IMG/VR virus record: IMGVR_UViG_3300021197_001587
Location: 1 to 21,385 of that record
Source: a virus
Direction: 5' to 3' (one strand)
DNA: 21,385 nt
The position numbers and the translations under genes were made by a program. The notes under the pieces are model-generated. The model did not search any database, was not told the origin of the DNA, and worked only from the letters and a program-made list of their open reading frames with translations. Shown here piece by piece: positions 8,396 through 13,403 of this stretch (position 1 is the stretch's first letter; each line of letters opens with the position of its first letter).

Positions 8396-9307
8396 ATGAA
8401 TGTTTCTAATACTCCACTTAGCGAGCACACGAAAAATCTTTTTACACAGATTTATGAGCCTATTTTTGAACAGTACACTAACTTTTATTATAATAATCTT
8501 GAAAGTGAATTTGTTGAAAAATATAATGTCATAAAAGATCCAACTTGGCCAGATTGCACTGCTTATAGTAAATTTGCTAAACTTCCTGATGCTATAAAAC
8601 AAGAGTGTGTTGATGTACATAATTTTTCACCAAAGATATATTATGAATCTGTAAAAAGAGATTTTGGAACCTATCACACACAAACGCATGTCACTATAAA
8701 TGATACTATAGTAAAGTTTATACGAAAGCATATTGATGTAATTGAAAATAAAAATGTAATAGATTTTGCATGTAAGGACGGAGCTGTAAGTTGTCTTGCT
8801 TCATTGTACAAAGCACACAGCGTGTTAGGTATGGATGTAAGGCAAGATAATATAGATATTGCTTGTTCAATAAGGCAAGACCTGCAACTTGATATAAATT
8901 TTGTACTTAGTAATTTGCACGATTATGAAACAAACAAAATATTGTGCAAGGATAAGGATACTGCACTTCTATTCGGCATAATGTATCATGTCCATGACCA
9001 TGTTGACATAATTGATAGTATTTTTTGCAACAATGTGAAAAATATAATGATTGAGTCGGGTATATATGAGGACGAACAACCATTGATTTGGTGGAAGACG
9101 GAACCTACATTTGAACTGCGAAGCGGATGGCATGATAGCAAAAACGAAATAATTGTTGGTTTTCCAACAATTTCATGGTTTGACTTAATTGCAAACTATT
9201 ATGGTTACACCAAGATTAATCAAGTTACATATAATATTCCGTCATCAAAAAACAGTCCAAACGATCATCCTGGACCACGTGCAATTTTATTATATAAAAA
9301 AGGTTGA
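8396..9307 (+). CDS. SAM-dependent methyltransferase, class I, CmoB-like
   Basis: 303 residues. The SAM site is visible: motif I NVIDFACKDGAVSCLA (120-135), an acidic residue after the second strand in VLGMDVRQDNIDIA (143-156) and the motif IV-like ALLFGIMYHVHDHVDI (190-205). The GIMYHVHDH pattern and the preceding 95-residue helical N-terminus recall CmoB-type and related SAM-using enzymes. Motif I has Cys-Lys-Asp-Gly in place of the usual Gly-x-Gly, which is uncommon. Methyl acceptor unknown: tRNA, glycan or small molecule are all possible. The ATG has no good Shine-Dalgarno sequence. The stop TGA lies inside the -35 box of the next promoter. Probably an accessory gene inserted between structural genes. 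Confidence 0.75.
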   Translation: MNVSNTPLSEHTKNLFTQIYEPIFEQYTNFYYNNLESEFVEKYNVIKDPTWPDCTAYSKFAKLPDAIKQECVDVHNFSPKIYYESVKRDFGTYHTQTHVTINDTIVKFIRKHIDVIENKNVIDFACKDGAVSCLASLYKAHSVLGMDVRQDNIDIACSIRQDLQLDINFVLSNLHDYETNKILCKDKDTALLFGIMYHVHDHVDIIDSIFCNNVKNIMIESGIYEDEQPLIWWKTEPTFELRSGWHDSKNEIIVGFPTISWFDLIANYYGYTKINQVTYNIPSSKNSPNDHPGPRAILLYKKG

Positions 9308-9337: not shown

Positions 9338-9859
9338 ATGGATATTATGATAGATATAGAAACTGTAGGTACTGGCCCTGACGCTTGTATTCTTACAATA
9401 GCAGCCCAAACCTTTGACCCACTTAGTGTTGGTTACCAAAAACAAGATTACTATGCACGTGTTGATGTAGACAGTCAACCTGACAGAGAAGTAGATGATT
9501 CAACTGTAGAATGGTGGGCAACACAACCCAAAGAAGCACAGGATGAAGCATTTGGTGAAGAAGGTCGAATACCTCTAAAGCAAGCACTTGAGGAACTGAG
9601 CAAGTTATGTTTTCATTGCAAACTAACTTGGGCTAACGGTACAACCTTTGATATGGTTATACTTGAGAATGCATTTAAACAACTTGGATTGCCTATACCG
9701 TGGCAATTTTGGAATGTGAGAGATGCACGTACGGTATATAGTTTGTATCCAGACTTGCCTAAGCCACGTGCAAGTCACCATGCACTAGAAGATTGCCGAA
9801 GACAAATTGATCTATTGCAACAAACATTAAAACATCTCAGAGTACCAGGACTAAAATGA
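9338..9859 (+). CDS. dexA: DexA-like 3'-5' exonuclease
   Basis: 173 residues of the DEDD exonuclease superfamily: Exo I is MIDIET with D6 and E8, Exo II is WANGTTFDMVIL with D105, and Exo III is HHALEDC with H147 and D152. The layout resembles T4 DexA and Rv2179c-type enzymes, which trim nucleic acid from the 3' end using two metal ions. At 173 residues it is shorter than T4 DexA (227). ATG at 9338 or 9347 could start it; neither has a Shine-Dalgarno sequence and the promoter predicts a leaderless or 9-base leader RNA. The stop overlaps the kinase start (ATGA). RNase rather than DNase activity is possible. Confidence 0.85.
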   Translation: MDIMIDIETVGTGPDACILTIAAQTFDPLSVGYQKQDYYARVDVDSQPDREVDDSTVEWWATQPKEAQDEAFGEEGRIPLKQALEELSKLCFHCKLTWANGTTFDMVILENAFKQLGLPIPWQFWNVRDARTVYSLYPDLPKPRASHHALEDCRRQIDLLQQTLKHLRVPGLK

Positions 9860-10470
9860 TAATTGGTATATGTGGTTTAATAGGTTCTGGCAAAGGCTCG
9901 GTAGGAGACATACTTGTTAAGCAAGGATACAAAAAAGTAAGTTTTGCTGACAAACTCAAAGACGGTGTAGCAACTATATTTGGTTATGATCGAGCAATGC
10001 TAGAAGGCGATACTGATGAAAGCAGATCTTGGCGCGAACAACCAGATGCCTTTTGGTCCAAAGAAACTGGTAGAACAATTACCCCAAGAATAATTTTGCA
10101 AGAATTTGGCACTGACTGTATGCGAGATGGTTACTATGATGGTGTATGGGTAAGTTTACTCAAACAACACCTACTAGACAACCCAGGAAATTATGTGATA
10201 CCTGATGTGCGTTTTCGTAACGAACAAGATATGATTAGAGATCTAGGCGGAGAAATTTGGCGTGTGCAACGCGGCGATGTTCCTGAATGGTATGGATGTG
10301 CAATGTTAGATAATACAACAGGCAGTAATCTAATGGAAGCCTATGATGTACATGTTAGCGAATACAAATGGATTGATATGAACAACAAGTTCAATACAAC
10401 CATCTATAACAACAGTACCATCAAAGATCTTAAAGAGCGTGTAGTTGGCCTGATAAATATGAATACATAG
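9856..10470 (+). CDS. 1: Deoxynucleoside monophosphate kinase, gp1-like
   Basis: 204 residues. The P-loop GLIGSGKGS (7-15) lies in the first ten residues, as in T4 gene 1 and related phage dNMP kinases. Further family-like segments are KKVSFADKLKDGVATIFGYD, the FWSKETGRTITPRIILQEFG block and VIPDVRFRNEQDMIRDLGGE (about 114-133). The enzyme phosphorylates dNMPs to dNDPs with ATP for phage DNA synthesis. It is translationally coupled to dexA by an ATGA overlap, and the pair has its own sigma70-type promoter, which fits early or middle expression although the pair lies among structural genes. The length is somewhat shorter than T4 gp1 (241). Confidence 0.9.
   Translation: MIIGICGLIGSGKGSVGDILVKQGYKKVSFADKLKDGVATIFGYDRAMLEGDTDESRSWREQPDAFWSKETGRTITPRIILQEFGTDCMRDGYYDGVWVSLLKQHLLDNPGNYVIPDVRFRNEQDMIRDLGGEIWRVQRGDVPEWYGCAMLDNTTGSNLMEAYDVHVSEYKWIDMNNKFNTTIYNNSTIKDLKERVVGLINMNT
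10452..10459 (+). promoter_or_regulatory. Possible late-promoter-like octamer GATAAATA
   Basis: GATAAATA lies in the last codons of the kinase gene, 45 bases before the ATG of the oxygenase-like gene. It matches the late core except at the first base, but could be chance because it is coding. Confidence 0.35.
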
Positions 10471-10503
10471 CACAAATAGTTGTGTAACAGAGAGTATCAT
10501 TAC

Positions 10504-11145
10504 ATGGAAAAAATAGCCGGACAGATACAAGATTTTGCTATTGAAGAAGATTTAGTAGAATGGAGTTTTGCTCTGAGCAAAACAAACGCAATGATAATCA
10601 TGAATAACGATTGCCACGGCGTGGATGAAAACCATATGTTCTACAACTGGTTTATTGATACAATTTTTTCTAAAATACAAAATGTAATGAACGATCAAAA
10701 CCTTGTTCCAACGTTTGGTATGTATCTAAATGAAACTAAACCTTGGGGAATACACACAGACGGCTATCATGTACACGATAATCCAAATCGAGAAGCGGCT
10801 ATAAGTTTTTTAATGCCGTTAAGTGTAGATAATAACCCAAGTTTAGTAACAGAGTCTAGGACTATTGTATTTGACCAGTGCCGAGATACAAATTCAATAG
10901 ATGATATCGAATCGTTGGATGACCAAACCAATCATCCAAATAGTGCATTACACATATATAAAAAACACCTTAGTCATAACAAAGAAAATGAAGTTAAACA
11001 ATTTACTGTGCAAGGGCAATATCAATGGACCCGAGGTAGTCTCATATGGTGGCAAGGCCGATATTTTCACGATACAGACAATTTCTTAGCCAACGGGTAT
11101 ACTTCTAAACAAGCACTGGTTATTCATACACACTATGAAGTTTAA
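10504..11145 (+). CDS. 2OG-Fe(II) oxygenase-like protein
   Basis: 213 residues from the ATG at 10504, chosen because GAGAG lies about ten bases before it; a TTG at 10480 would add eight residues. A jelly-roll pattern is visible: GIHTDGYHV (82-90) supplies His84-x-Asp86, AAISFLMPL (98-106) a core strand, GSLIWWQGRYFHDTDNF (178-194) supplies the distal His189, and SKQALVIHTHY (201-211) follows with Lys202, which could bind 2-oxoglutarate. The two-His-one-carboxylate triad binds Fe(II) in this superfamily. Substrate unknown. The end overlaps the radical SAM gene by 11 bases, suggesting joint function. Superfamily call moderate. Confidence 0.65.
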   Translation: MEKIAGQIQDFAIEEDLVEWSFALSKTNAMIIMNNDCHGVDENHMFYNWFIDTIFSKIQNVMNDQNLVPTFGMYLNETKPWGIHTDGYHVHDNPNREAAISFLMPLSVDNNPSLVTESRTIVFDQCRDTNSIDDIESLDDQTNHPNSALHIYKKHLSHNKENEVKQFTVQGQYQWTRGSLIWWQGRYFHDTDNFLANGYTSKQALVIHTHYEV

Positions 11146-12592
11146 CTGTCTGTCTAATTTAAACAACGAAACACGCGATGTTGTTATAATTACAGTTCCG
11201 TGGACTGACAGCAGCATTCCTCTAATGGCACCAGCTCAACTTAAACCCATCGTCGAAAGTGCAGGAATGAGTTGTTTAGCAACCGATCTAAACGCTGAAA
11301 TATTTTCCTGGACAAAGACACACAGCAAAGTTGACAATTTGTTACGGTTTTTCTTTGATGAATTTTTAGTCGATGACGTTAAAGTTGAACTATTTGATCT
11401 TTTTAAGGAAGTTGCTGAACAAATTCTTAGTTGGAACCCTAAGATCGTAGGATTAAGTTTGTTTAGTTATGTAAGTCAAAGTAGTGCAAAATGGCTTGCT
11501 TGGTTTATTAAAAAAATAGACCCTACTGTTATTATAATACTTGGCGGCGCAGGCTGCTTGCCTACGTTTACTGGTCCTAGTGTATATGCTGACGATTTGA
11601 TTTCTGCTGGATTGGTTGACTATCACATTCGGGGAGACGGCGAGCATGCATTGTATGAGTTTCTTAAAGACAATAGAGAATATGCTGGTATTAATAGTTT
11701 AGAATGGCGTGAACTTAGTAAAGATGAAATGCGTAGTTTGCCTATGCCAGATTATAGTGAATATTATTTTGATACATATCAAAAAAAAGTACTTCCTTTA
11801 ACTGGTAGTAGAGGTTGTGTTCGAAAATGCACGTTTTGTGATTACATTGCTAACTGGAAAGTGTTTAACTGGCGAAATGCTGATGATATTTACAACGAGA
11901 TGCAAGTTCAATATCAAAAATACGGCATTAGGTATTTTAAATTCCAAGATAGTTTAACCAATGGCAATATGAAAGAATTTGTTACGTTAACTGAAATGCT
12001 TAGTGCATACAACACCGCAAACCCAGACAAAAGTTTTCGTTGGAGCGGGTATTATATTTTCCGTGAACATAACTCTAAAACAGAGTATGAATGGGAAATG
12101 GTTGCGGCAAGCGGCGCCGAAACGTTAGCAGTAGGAATTGAAAACTTAAATCAACATATCCGATATGCTATTGGTAAAAAATTTAGCAATGAAGCAATTG
12201 ATGTGCATCTTGCATTTGCACAAAAGCACAATATTCGTTTGCAGTTATTAAATATTGTTGGGTATGTTAACGAAACAGAAGATGATATTAATTTTATTAA
12301 ACAATGGTTGCGTGATCATACTGTGTATCAGGATATACTTCATTTACAATTTGGTGGCACTTTAGGTATATTTCCAAACACCTGGCTTGATCGTAATTGG
12401 AAAAAATTGGGCTTGGAACGCACGAGCGACTCTCCACAAGGGTGGATCAATCGTGAAATTGATAGTACTCCAGAAAAACGTGCCAGATGGGCACAAGAAA
12501 TTAACAAGCTAGGTACTAACTTAGGCTATTCTGTTGCAGACAATCTAGATAATCACTATATACTGGAGTCGATGATAAATGACAAAATTTAA
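11135..12592 (+). CDS. B12-binding-type radical SAM protein
   Basis: 485 residues. Residues about 14-180 form a Rossmann-like domain of the B12-binding type (VVIITVPW, KIVGLSLFSY, IIILGGAGC, then RGDGEHALYEF), but the DxHxxG motif for base-off cobalamin is not seen. The radical SAM core begins at LTGSRGCVRKCTFCDY with C228-x3-C232-x2-C235 for the 4Fe-4S cluster; AVGIENLNQHIR and LLNIVGYVNETEDD are typical later core elements. Such proteins methylate or rearrange unactivated carbons, build glycans, or thiomethylate; the substrate is not readable. It overlaps the oxygenase-like gene upstream by 11 bases and the small gene downstream by 14, a tight three-gene unit. Confidence 0.9.
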   Translation: MKFNCLSNLNNETRDVVIITVPWTDSSIPLMAPAQLKPIVESAGMSCLATDLNAEIFSWTKTHSKVDNLLRFFFDEFLVDDVKVELFDLFKEVAEQILSWNPKIVGLSLFSYVSQSSAKWLAWFIKKIDPTVIIILGGAGCLPTFTGPSVYADDLISAGLVDYHIRGDGEHALYEFLKDNREYAGINSLEWRELSKDEMRSLPMPDYSEYYFDTYQKKVLPLTGSRGCVRKCTFCDYIANWKVFNWRNADDIYNEMQVQYQKYGIRYFKFQDSLTNGNMKEFVTLTEMLSAYNTANPDKSFRWSGYYIFREHNSKTEYEWEMVAASGAETLAVGIENLNQHIRYAIGKKFSNEAIDVHLAFAQKHNIRLQLLNIVGYVNETEDDINFIKQWLRDHTVYQDILHLQFGGTLGIFPNTWLDRNWKKLGLERTSDSPQGWINREIDSTPEKRARWAQEINKLGTNLGYSVADNLDNHYILESMINDKI

Positions 12593-12998
12593 CCAATGTA
12601 AATTAGAAATTAAATTTGAATTTGGAAGTTGTAATAGCAAATATTTTACAGTAGTAGTTTTTGATAATAAGTCTGTAAAAACAATAACTCCTACTGACAA
12701 CTTTTATTGCACTGATATAGAATTACCTACACAAGTAAAGATGGCGTTTAGCGGCAAGAATGATGGCGACACACTTGTGGATGAGAATAATAACATTGTT
12801 GAAGATATGTATGTTAAAATAGCTGGAATCTGGTTGGATAAATTTCCACTAAGTGAAAAATACATGCATCAACAAATACAGATAGTAACAACATCAGGCG
12901 AAACACACACAACAAGTTATATTGGGTTTAATGGCACTGTTGTTTTAGAATATTCTGAAGATAATGTATTTTCGCAAGTGTTGAGTTTAAGCAATTAG
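12579..12998 (+). CDS. Unknown 139-aa beta-rich protein
   Basis: 139 residues. Alternating hydrophobic strands (CKLEIKFEFGSC, YFTVVVFDNKSV, QVKMAFSGKN, VKIAGIWLDKFPL, QIQIVTTSGE, YIGFNGTVVLEY) suggest an all-beta sandwich. SGKNDGDTLVDENNNIVEDM (about 59-78) is Asp/Asn-rich and could hold calcium as in carbohydrate-binding sandwiches. No catalytic motif. It overlaps the radical SAM gene by 14 bases, with GGAG about 11 bases before the ATG. Its stop shares bases with the convergent HNH gene stop (TTAG at 12995-12998). It could be a binding partner or substrate of the two enzymes upstream; this is inference. Confidence 0.65.
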   Translation: MTKFNQCKLEIKFEFGSCNSKYFTVVVFDNKSVKTITPTDNFYCTDIELPTQVKMAFSGKNDGDTLVDENNNIVEDMYVKIAGIWLDKFPLSEKYMHQQIQIVTTSGETHTTSYIGFNGTVVLEYSEDNVFSQVLSLSN

Positions 12999-13339
12999 TC
13001 CTCAATGAGATCCCCAACTCTCCAAGGTAAGTCCATCCTTGTAATTTCTACTGTACAATTTAAACAAACATTTCTTAGATTGGTAAGACTAACATTGTTT
13101 AAATCACCATCCATGTGATATACTAGTATTTGAGCTCCGCTTTTCGCACGGAAGCTACAACGGTCGCATTTTAGTTTTTTAATAAAACCACTTGATCTCC
13201 AACGTGGTTCGTTTGCTTTATGTTTTCGTTTGCGTCTTATACAACTGTCGCATCTGGTGCGATAGTGTGTTTTGTTTTCTTTAATATAATTGACTGCAAC
13301 AAAACGTTGGTTACATGCATTGCAAATAGGCCTATTCAT
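12995..13339 (-). CDS. HNH endonuclease-like zinc protein
   Basis: 114 residues from the ATG at 13339-13337 (MNRPICNACNQRF), the usual start style of this family in marine T4-like phages; a TTG at 13369 would add ten residues. Counting from ATG, CxxC pairs occur at 6/9, 30/33, 58/61 and 92/95, and the HNH-like segment VYHMDGDLNNVSLTNLRNVC (about 73-92) holds His75 and the Asn residues. HNH nucleases nick or cut DNA and are often homing or packaging enzymes. It is convergent with the radical SAM cassette and divergent from the sheath gene. TATTTAGT at 13345-13352 (minus strand ACTAAATA) may be a weak late-type promoter. Confidence 0.75.
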   Translation of the reverse strand: MNRPICNACNQRFVAVNYIKENKTHYRTRCDSCIRRKRKHKANEPRWRSSGFIKKLKCDRCSFRAKSGAQILVYHMDGDLNNVSLTNLRNVCLNCTVEITRMDLPWRVGDLIED

Positions 13340-13403
13340 ACGGGTATTTAGTAATATAAACCTTTGCAAAGGGCAGTGTTTACGGCATTATTTGGAACAT
13401 TCT

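Follow-up and report, generated by a model that had tools for sequence, protein, structure and literature searches.

A B12-type radical SAM protein and a carbohydrate-binding-module-like partner form a near-obligate gene pair in phage genomes

B12-dependent radical SAM enzymes, a largely uncharted group, catalyse methylations that rank among the most difficult known. In the chemistry of this class, reductive cleavage of SAM yields a 5'-deoxyadenosyl radical that abstracts hydrogen from the substrate, the methyl group comes from methylcobalamin, and most members methylate (PMC8992657, PMC11659888). The closest described relatives of the system analysed here are the cobalamin radical SAM class B methylases (PhpK, TsrM, CysS; TIGR04479, TIGR03975, TIGR04072), in which a B12-binding Rossmann domain is followed by a CX3CX2C radical SAM domain, and the RiPP systems (TIGR03975, ApyD), in which a B12 radical SAM gene lies beside a small-protein gene. 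Two further protein classes serve for comparison: the Ca-dependent modules of CBM36/CBM60 (vCBM60; 2xfd, 2xhh), known as modules of glycoside hydrolases, and the prolyl 4-hydroxylases (viral collagen prolyl hydroxylase 5c5t, bacterial P4H, PHD2). We place the locus described here among the cobalamin-dependent radical SAM tailoring systems, as a phage-borne form with a CBM-like partner.

The window, that is, the whole stretch of 21,385 bp that was analysed, is the complete IMG/VR record IMGVR_UViG_3300021197_001587. The closest homologues of its tail tube and sheath proteins are found in the jumbo myoviruses Sinorhizobium phage Phosso, Agrobacterium phage Atu_ph07 and Pseudomonas phage PA5oct, and the window is thus a piece of a jumbo myovirus genome. 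Three genes on the plus strand make up the cassette: OXY (10504..11145, with an alternative in-frame TTG start at 10480) encodes an Fe(II)/2-oxoglutarate (2OG) oxygenase-like protein of 213 aa, rSAM (11135..12592) a radical SAM protein of 485 aa with a putative B12-binding domain, and BETA (12579..12998) a beta-sandwich protein of 139 aa with a predicted CBM60-like fold. By the ORF coordinates, OXY and rSAM overlap by 11 nt and rSAM and BETA by 14 nt, in exact agreement with the first-pass annotation. The same annotation had located the cassette between nucleotide metabolism genes and the sheath gene. On the left, a deoxynucleoside monophosphate (dNMP) kinase gene does adjoin it (9856..10470, plus strand; PHROG 139, 9.8e-43), but on the right an HNH-endonuclease-like gene (12995..13369, minus strand; PHROG 2255, 4.6e-5) intervenes before the sheath gene.

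Both flanking genes are core genes and lie outside the module. In close relatives with a 96-100% identical tube protein (L005, L007, L009, L014), the cassette is absent and the kinase and HNH genes abut, which reveals an empty insertion site. Elsewhere, the rSAM-BETA pair is found after a neck gene, after an exonuclease gene, or at unrelated positions. The proximity of the dNMP kinase and exonuclease genes might point to phage DNA, tRNA or deoxynucleotides as targets of the enzymes. This is weakened by the fact that these neighbours are core genes, retained in relatives without the cassette, and by the presence of the pair at unrelated positions; we consider such a nucleotide or nucleic-acid modification very unlikely. 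The neck-to-sheath region as a whole is a cargo hot spot. Cargo at nearby sites includes a methyltransferase-like gene (window 8396-9307) and, in the relative L024 (2914-5592), SGNH-hydrolase-like, methyltransferase-like and unassigned genes.

A T4-late-promoter-like octamer, GATAAATA (10452..10459, plus strand), matches DATAAATA 52 nt upstream of OXY and is suggestive only. Four such octamers occur in the window (224, 10452, 13404, 16826), all on the plus strand, 26-52 nt before the starts of the fibre, OXY, sheath and tube genes, an arrangement resembling T4 late promoters. Their number is not above the 6.1 expected by chance, and no octamer precedes rSAM in 64 other loci; these octamers were therefore dropped as evidence.

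The rSAM protein has the radical SAM domain of the class B methylases and a probable B12-binding domain before it. Its cluster-binding motif CX3CX2C (residues 228-235; C228, C232, C235), reported as clean from the first reading, is kept in 62/62 relatives. Pfam Radical_SAM (PF04055) matches above its cut-off (1.1e-7), and the B12-binding model PF02310 matches residues 81-176 (1.6e-6) with 28.4 bits, just under its cut-off of 32.1. NCBIfam models of B12 radical SAM proteins align over both domains, and those for PhpK, TIGR03975, ladderane-B12, ApyD and BchE match all 21 scanned relatives, far under their cut-offs. The window protein fails the family-level cut-offs of PhpK (74 bits vs 600), TIGR03975 (80.1 vs 281.85) and ladderane-B12 (TIGR04072; 73.9 vs 360). 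Its scores, between about one tenth and one quarter of the cut-offs, place it in none of the class B methylase families; since the models match and yet score so far below their thresholds, the superfamily is clear and the family is new. Against the anti-phage defence models of PADLOC, rSAM has a weak match to the candidate model PDC-M51A (1.5e-6, 25 bits), no stronger than might be expected of radical SAM proteins in general.

A DxHxxG motif had initially been described as missing. A literal string of this form, DYHIRG, does exist at residues 162-167; however, it occupies the GDGE position, beyond the GGxG loop, and only 19 of the 62 relatives have DxHxxG. It is therefore not the axial-His (His-on) motif, and the original inference stands. 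Like the class B methylases, rSAM is without the His-on motif at the canonical place, and B12 radical SAM enzymes lacking this motif or a lower axial ligand have precedent in Mmp10 (PMC8828468) and TsrM (PMC8992657).

To collect homologues, profile scans were needed, as single-sequence 8-mer peptide scans gave only one relative contig. Profile search of the scanned viral contigs yielded 420 rSAM relatives, of which 80 were retrieved after a first set of 25, and the family spreads over viral records of up to 350 kb. Across 65 distinct loci, including two MAG contigs, BETA directly adjoins rSAM in 63, nearly always overlapping it (62 by clustering and HMM, plus L148, where it lies behind a frameshifted rSAM); the exceptions are L149 and L181. 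The second commonest neighbour family occurs in 16 of the 65 loci, and by this measure the linkage of BETA to rSAM far exceeds chance. Clustering at 70% identity divides the 62 rSAM proteins into 42 groups, the BETA start lies between -44 and +8 nt of the rSAM stop, and the distance matrices of the two proteins are correlated (Mantel r 0.78, p 0.001). The neighbourhood comparison had been set beforehand, with genes that never co-occur as the refuting outcome, and the refutation fails. The genes proposed as a three-gene set do co-occur, although not as a fixed trio: OXY is optional (11/65), and rSAM and BETA form a near-obligate pair that is the actual unit of the cassette.

Searches of whole records uncovered second, more distant rSAM paralogues. 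In one paralogous pair (L234), the gene order is swapped: BETA comes first and overlaps rSAM at an ATGA. A natural fusion is encoded in a 192-kb phage record (G048, IMGVR_UViG_3300047548_000772) by a 703-aa ORF (L233:4103-6214), with rSAM at residues 3-388 (E 3.9e-75) and BETA at residues 531-656 (4.6e-13). Upstream of this ORF, at a distance of about 2.7 kb, lies a nucleotide-sugar dehydrogenase gene, and an OXY homologue is located within a few kb. Together, the linkage, the swapped order and the fusion are strong evidence for a shared function of rSAM and BETA. On a separate 46-kb contig (IMGVR_UViG_3300030108_005478), two diverged rSAM-BETA pairs (L155 and L192) were observed. Distant rSAM relatives in the MAG contigs L120-L123 are without an adjoining BETA, while in L119 a weak BETA match is located upstream.

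The structure of BETA was predicted with AlphaFold2 from 18 sequences, at a pLDDT of 92. Only two PDB entries match this model in Foldseek below 1e-3, and both are vCBM60 structures (2xhh, 2.8e-4, probability 1.00; 2xfd, 9.3e-4). VIA-align superposes them over 108 and 101 residues at 3.3-3.4 Å, with Z scores of 8.5 and 8.4, compared to 5.5 for the next unrelated entry, at a sequence identity of 14-15%. The model thus matches a beta-sandwich fold of the vCBM60 type (CBM36/60), in line with the binding-type beta sandwich proposed in the first-pass annotation; the protein is not motif-free as had been stated there, since the family has a conserved K..DT..D..GNI..D loop and a GFNG motif. In a set of 11 diverse members that covers paired, singleton and fused proteins, none departs from K60, T65, D76 and G119. 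As in CBM36/CBM60, an acidic loop is present in most members; by alignment and motif count, about one in four of the paired proteins has lost the K60-D76 loop, so Ca-dependent sugar binding would not be universal in the family. The CBM-like fold does not by itself establish sugar binding. Unlike the modules of CBM36/CBM60, BETA is a stand-alone partner of a radical SAM protein. No family in Pfam, PHROG or NCBIfam matches BETA, and profiles of BETA and OXY gave no match among PDB sequences.

Some BETA-like proteins occur as singletons without rSAM. They form a conserved jumbo-phage locus in L235, L238, L239, L240 and L241 (also L112 and L113), with DnaJ-like, Clp ATPase-like, 122-aa, BETA, nucleotidyltransferase-like and 'HICMPCYGG' glycosyltransferase-like genes, assigned by eye except for the match of the 122-aa protein. 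L241 has an inserted radical SAM gene of the SPASM type directly after its BETA singleton. The 122-aa protein next to several singletons has a weak virion-structural match, and BETA could accordingly be a virion-protein family. By analogy with RiPP maturases, or with Mmp10 acting on methyl-coenzyme M reductase, BETA might itself be the substrate: a small phage protein, perhaps lectin-like and at the virion surface, that is C-methylated or otherwise modified by rSAM and hydroxylated by OXY before acting. A single BETA per rSAM, produced right after it, would fit this reading, as would the four invariant residues, the singletons beside the 122-aa protein, the RiPP C-methyltransferase model among the best NCBIfam matches of rSAM, and the co-occurrence of a prolyl-hydroxylase-like OXY with a Pro that is invariant in 62/62 BETA proteins. 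However, most loci are without OXY although this Pro is invariant, and joining an enzyme to its own end product, as in the fusion protein, would be odd. The BETA genes mostly encode 120-180 aa, and the model of BETA shows a complete folded domain, of 120-160 aa in the family, rather than a precursor peptide. Unlike in RiPP systems, no leader/core peptide, protease or transporter was seen adjoining the pair among ORFs above about 40-60 aa. We regard BETA as substrate as unlikely, if credible, and favour BETA as a docking subunit, a role suggested by its binding-module fold, by the reversed gene order of one pair and by the fusion; the fusion argues for an enzyme subunit rather than an end product, without being decisive.

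For OXY, the AlphaFold2 model from four sequences has a pLDDT of 70 and is closest to 2OG-Fe(II) oxygenases and prolyl 4-hydroxylases (VIA Z 13.3 for 6n1f and 12.4 for 5c5t). The HxD...H triad noted at the outset is H84-T-D86 with H189 as the distal His. These residues and K202, a conserved basic residue 13 residues after the distal His, as for a candidate 2OG carboxylate contact, are invariant in 12/12 relatives down to 20% identity. OXY is thereby predicted to be an Fe(II)/2OG oxygenase with the double-stranded beta-helix, HxD...H motif and Lys of the prolyl hydroxylases, to which it has about 10% identity; it has no family match in Pfam, PHROG or NCBIfam. The structure predictions proposed as a check thus yielded a CBM60-like beta sandwich for BETA and a 2OG-oxygenase fold for OXY, and the description of two radical- or iron-based tailoring enzymes agrees with the domains of rSAM and the predicted fold of OXY.

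OXY is a facultative, mobile third member, found near the pair in about one locus in six. It is located upstream with an overlap in L002, L153, L156, L178 and L117, downstream of the pair in L088, L097 and L115, antisense in L157 and L160, and a few kb away in L146; more distant members are found near the fusion gene and diverged rSAM genes (L119, L233, L237). L002 and the window share 96% nucleotide identity over rSAM, 95% over BETA and 87-94% over the flanks but 76% over OXY, which indicates that OXY is exchanged, or evolves, on its own. This separate exchange, like the varied cargo taken up by the neck-sheath site in relatives, would be expected if the genes were chance neighbours of unrelated function. 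The linkage of rSAM and BETA, their reversed order and their fusion largely refute this for the pair, and the recurrence of OXY in differing arrangements speaks against it for the third gene; overall, we judge chance association extremely unlikely.

Other loci place twitch- and SPASM-type radical SAM proteins and short-chain dehydrogenases next to the pair. In the larger islands L156, L162, L167 and L178, paired family-less genes, sometimes with OXY, are followed by rSAM, BETA and a tandem array of as many as three radical SAM genes with twitch domains; these islands look like a phage-borne biosynthetic pathway. The pair could then tailor the diffusible product, a small molecule or a peptide, of a larger phage-encoded biosynthetic island, with BETA as a pathway scaffold, and the additional radical SAM proteins, dehydrogenases and other enzymes in several loci would suit this role. 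As the window and most close loci are without an island and have just the pair or trio among structural genes, we find this distinctly unlikely. Glycosyltransferase-like neighbours noted by eye had no support in any family library.

We return to BETA as a docking subunit. Starting from the genes, motifs, folds, pairing, fusion and facultative OXY described above, we infer cofactor use, subunit role, methylation and substrate class as follows. The N-terminal Rossmann domain of rSAM would hold cobalamin, and SAM would be bound on a [4Fe-4S] cluster ligated by C228, C232 and C235. The radical reaction would most probably place a methyl group on an unactivated carbon (or on phosphorus); the curated models that come nearest, PhpK and the RiPP C-methyltransferase, are methyltransferases. 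BETA would be made from the rSAM operon by translational coupling, would bind rSAM, and would then dock or select the substrate, most likely a phage or host glycan or glycoconjugate. Where present, OXY may carry out an Fe(II)/2OG-dependent oxidation of the same target. In this scheme, a molecule produced in the course of infection, likeliest a sugar-bearing one, probably receives a chemical modification from the pair. Our preferred reading as a whole is tentative, quite possible while short of probable: jumbo-phage mobile cargo encoding a two-component cobalamin radical SAM tailoring enzyme, with BETA docking the substrate, likeliest a glycan, and optional oxidation by OXY.

Of the targets named in the first-pass annotation (a glycan, a peptide, a nucleotide or the small protein itself), the glycan is hinted at by the CBM fold of BETA, which is not decisive, and the nucleotide-sugar dehydrogenase gene near the fusion gene also counts for the preferred reading. 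Counting against this reading are the loss of the acidic loop in part of the BETA family, the BETA singletons without rSAM, the lack of family support for glycosyltransferase-like neighbours, and the resemblance of OXY to prolyl hydroxylases, enzymes that act on proteins. That phages diversify the system through paralogous pairs, swapped order, fusion and an optional 2OG oxygenase so as to methylate and oxidise a glycan or glycoprotein of the virion or host surface appears possible but doubtful.

Unlike the class B methylases, rSAM is phage-borne, paired with a CBM-like protein and without an isolate homologue: tblastn searches of 50,697 phage records with rSAM, OXY, BETA, a diverged rSAM and a BETA singleton gave no match, and no description of an rSAM-BETA system was found in the literature on radical SAM or cobalamin proteins in jumbo, huge or viral genomes. 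The pair represents a broad phage-borne branch of B12 radical SAM proteins with a near-obligate CBM-like partner, absent from the cultured phages of the collection searched. If BETA is a specificity subunit, it would provide a handle on the choice of substrate by B12 radical SAM enzymes, and would suggest that unusual C-methyl or hydroxyl groups are introduced by jumbo phages during infection, perhaps to escape recognition by the host. The fusion protein lends itself to a direct test of the pairing.

Two minor observations concern other gene arrangements. In the Rhodobacteraceae MAG contig L121, a distant B12 radical SAM gene faces a tandem array of three 2OG-oxygenase-like genes, and another such gene lies upstream, as judged by eye. 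In the window, a 228-aa protein without a family match (960-1646) is encoded beside the Mtd_N fibre gene and recurs adjoining the NUDIX gene in the relatives L089 and L093.
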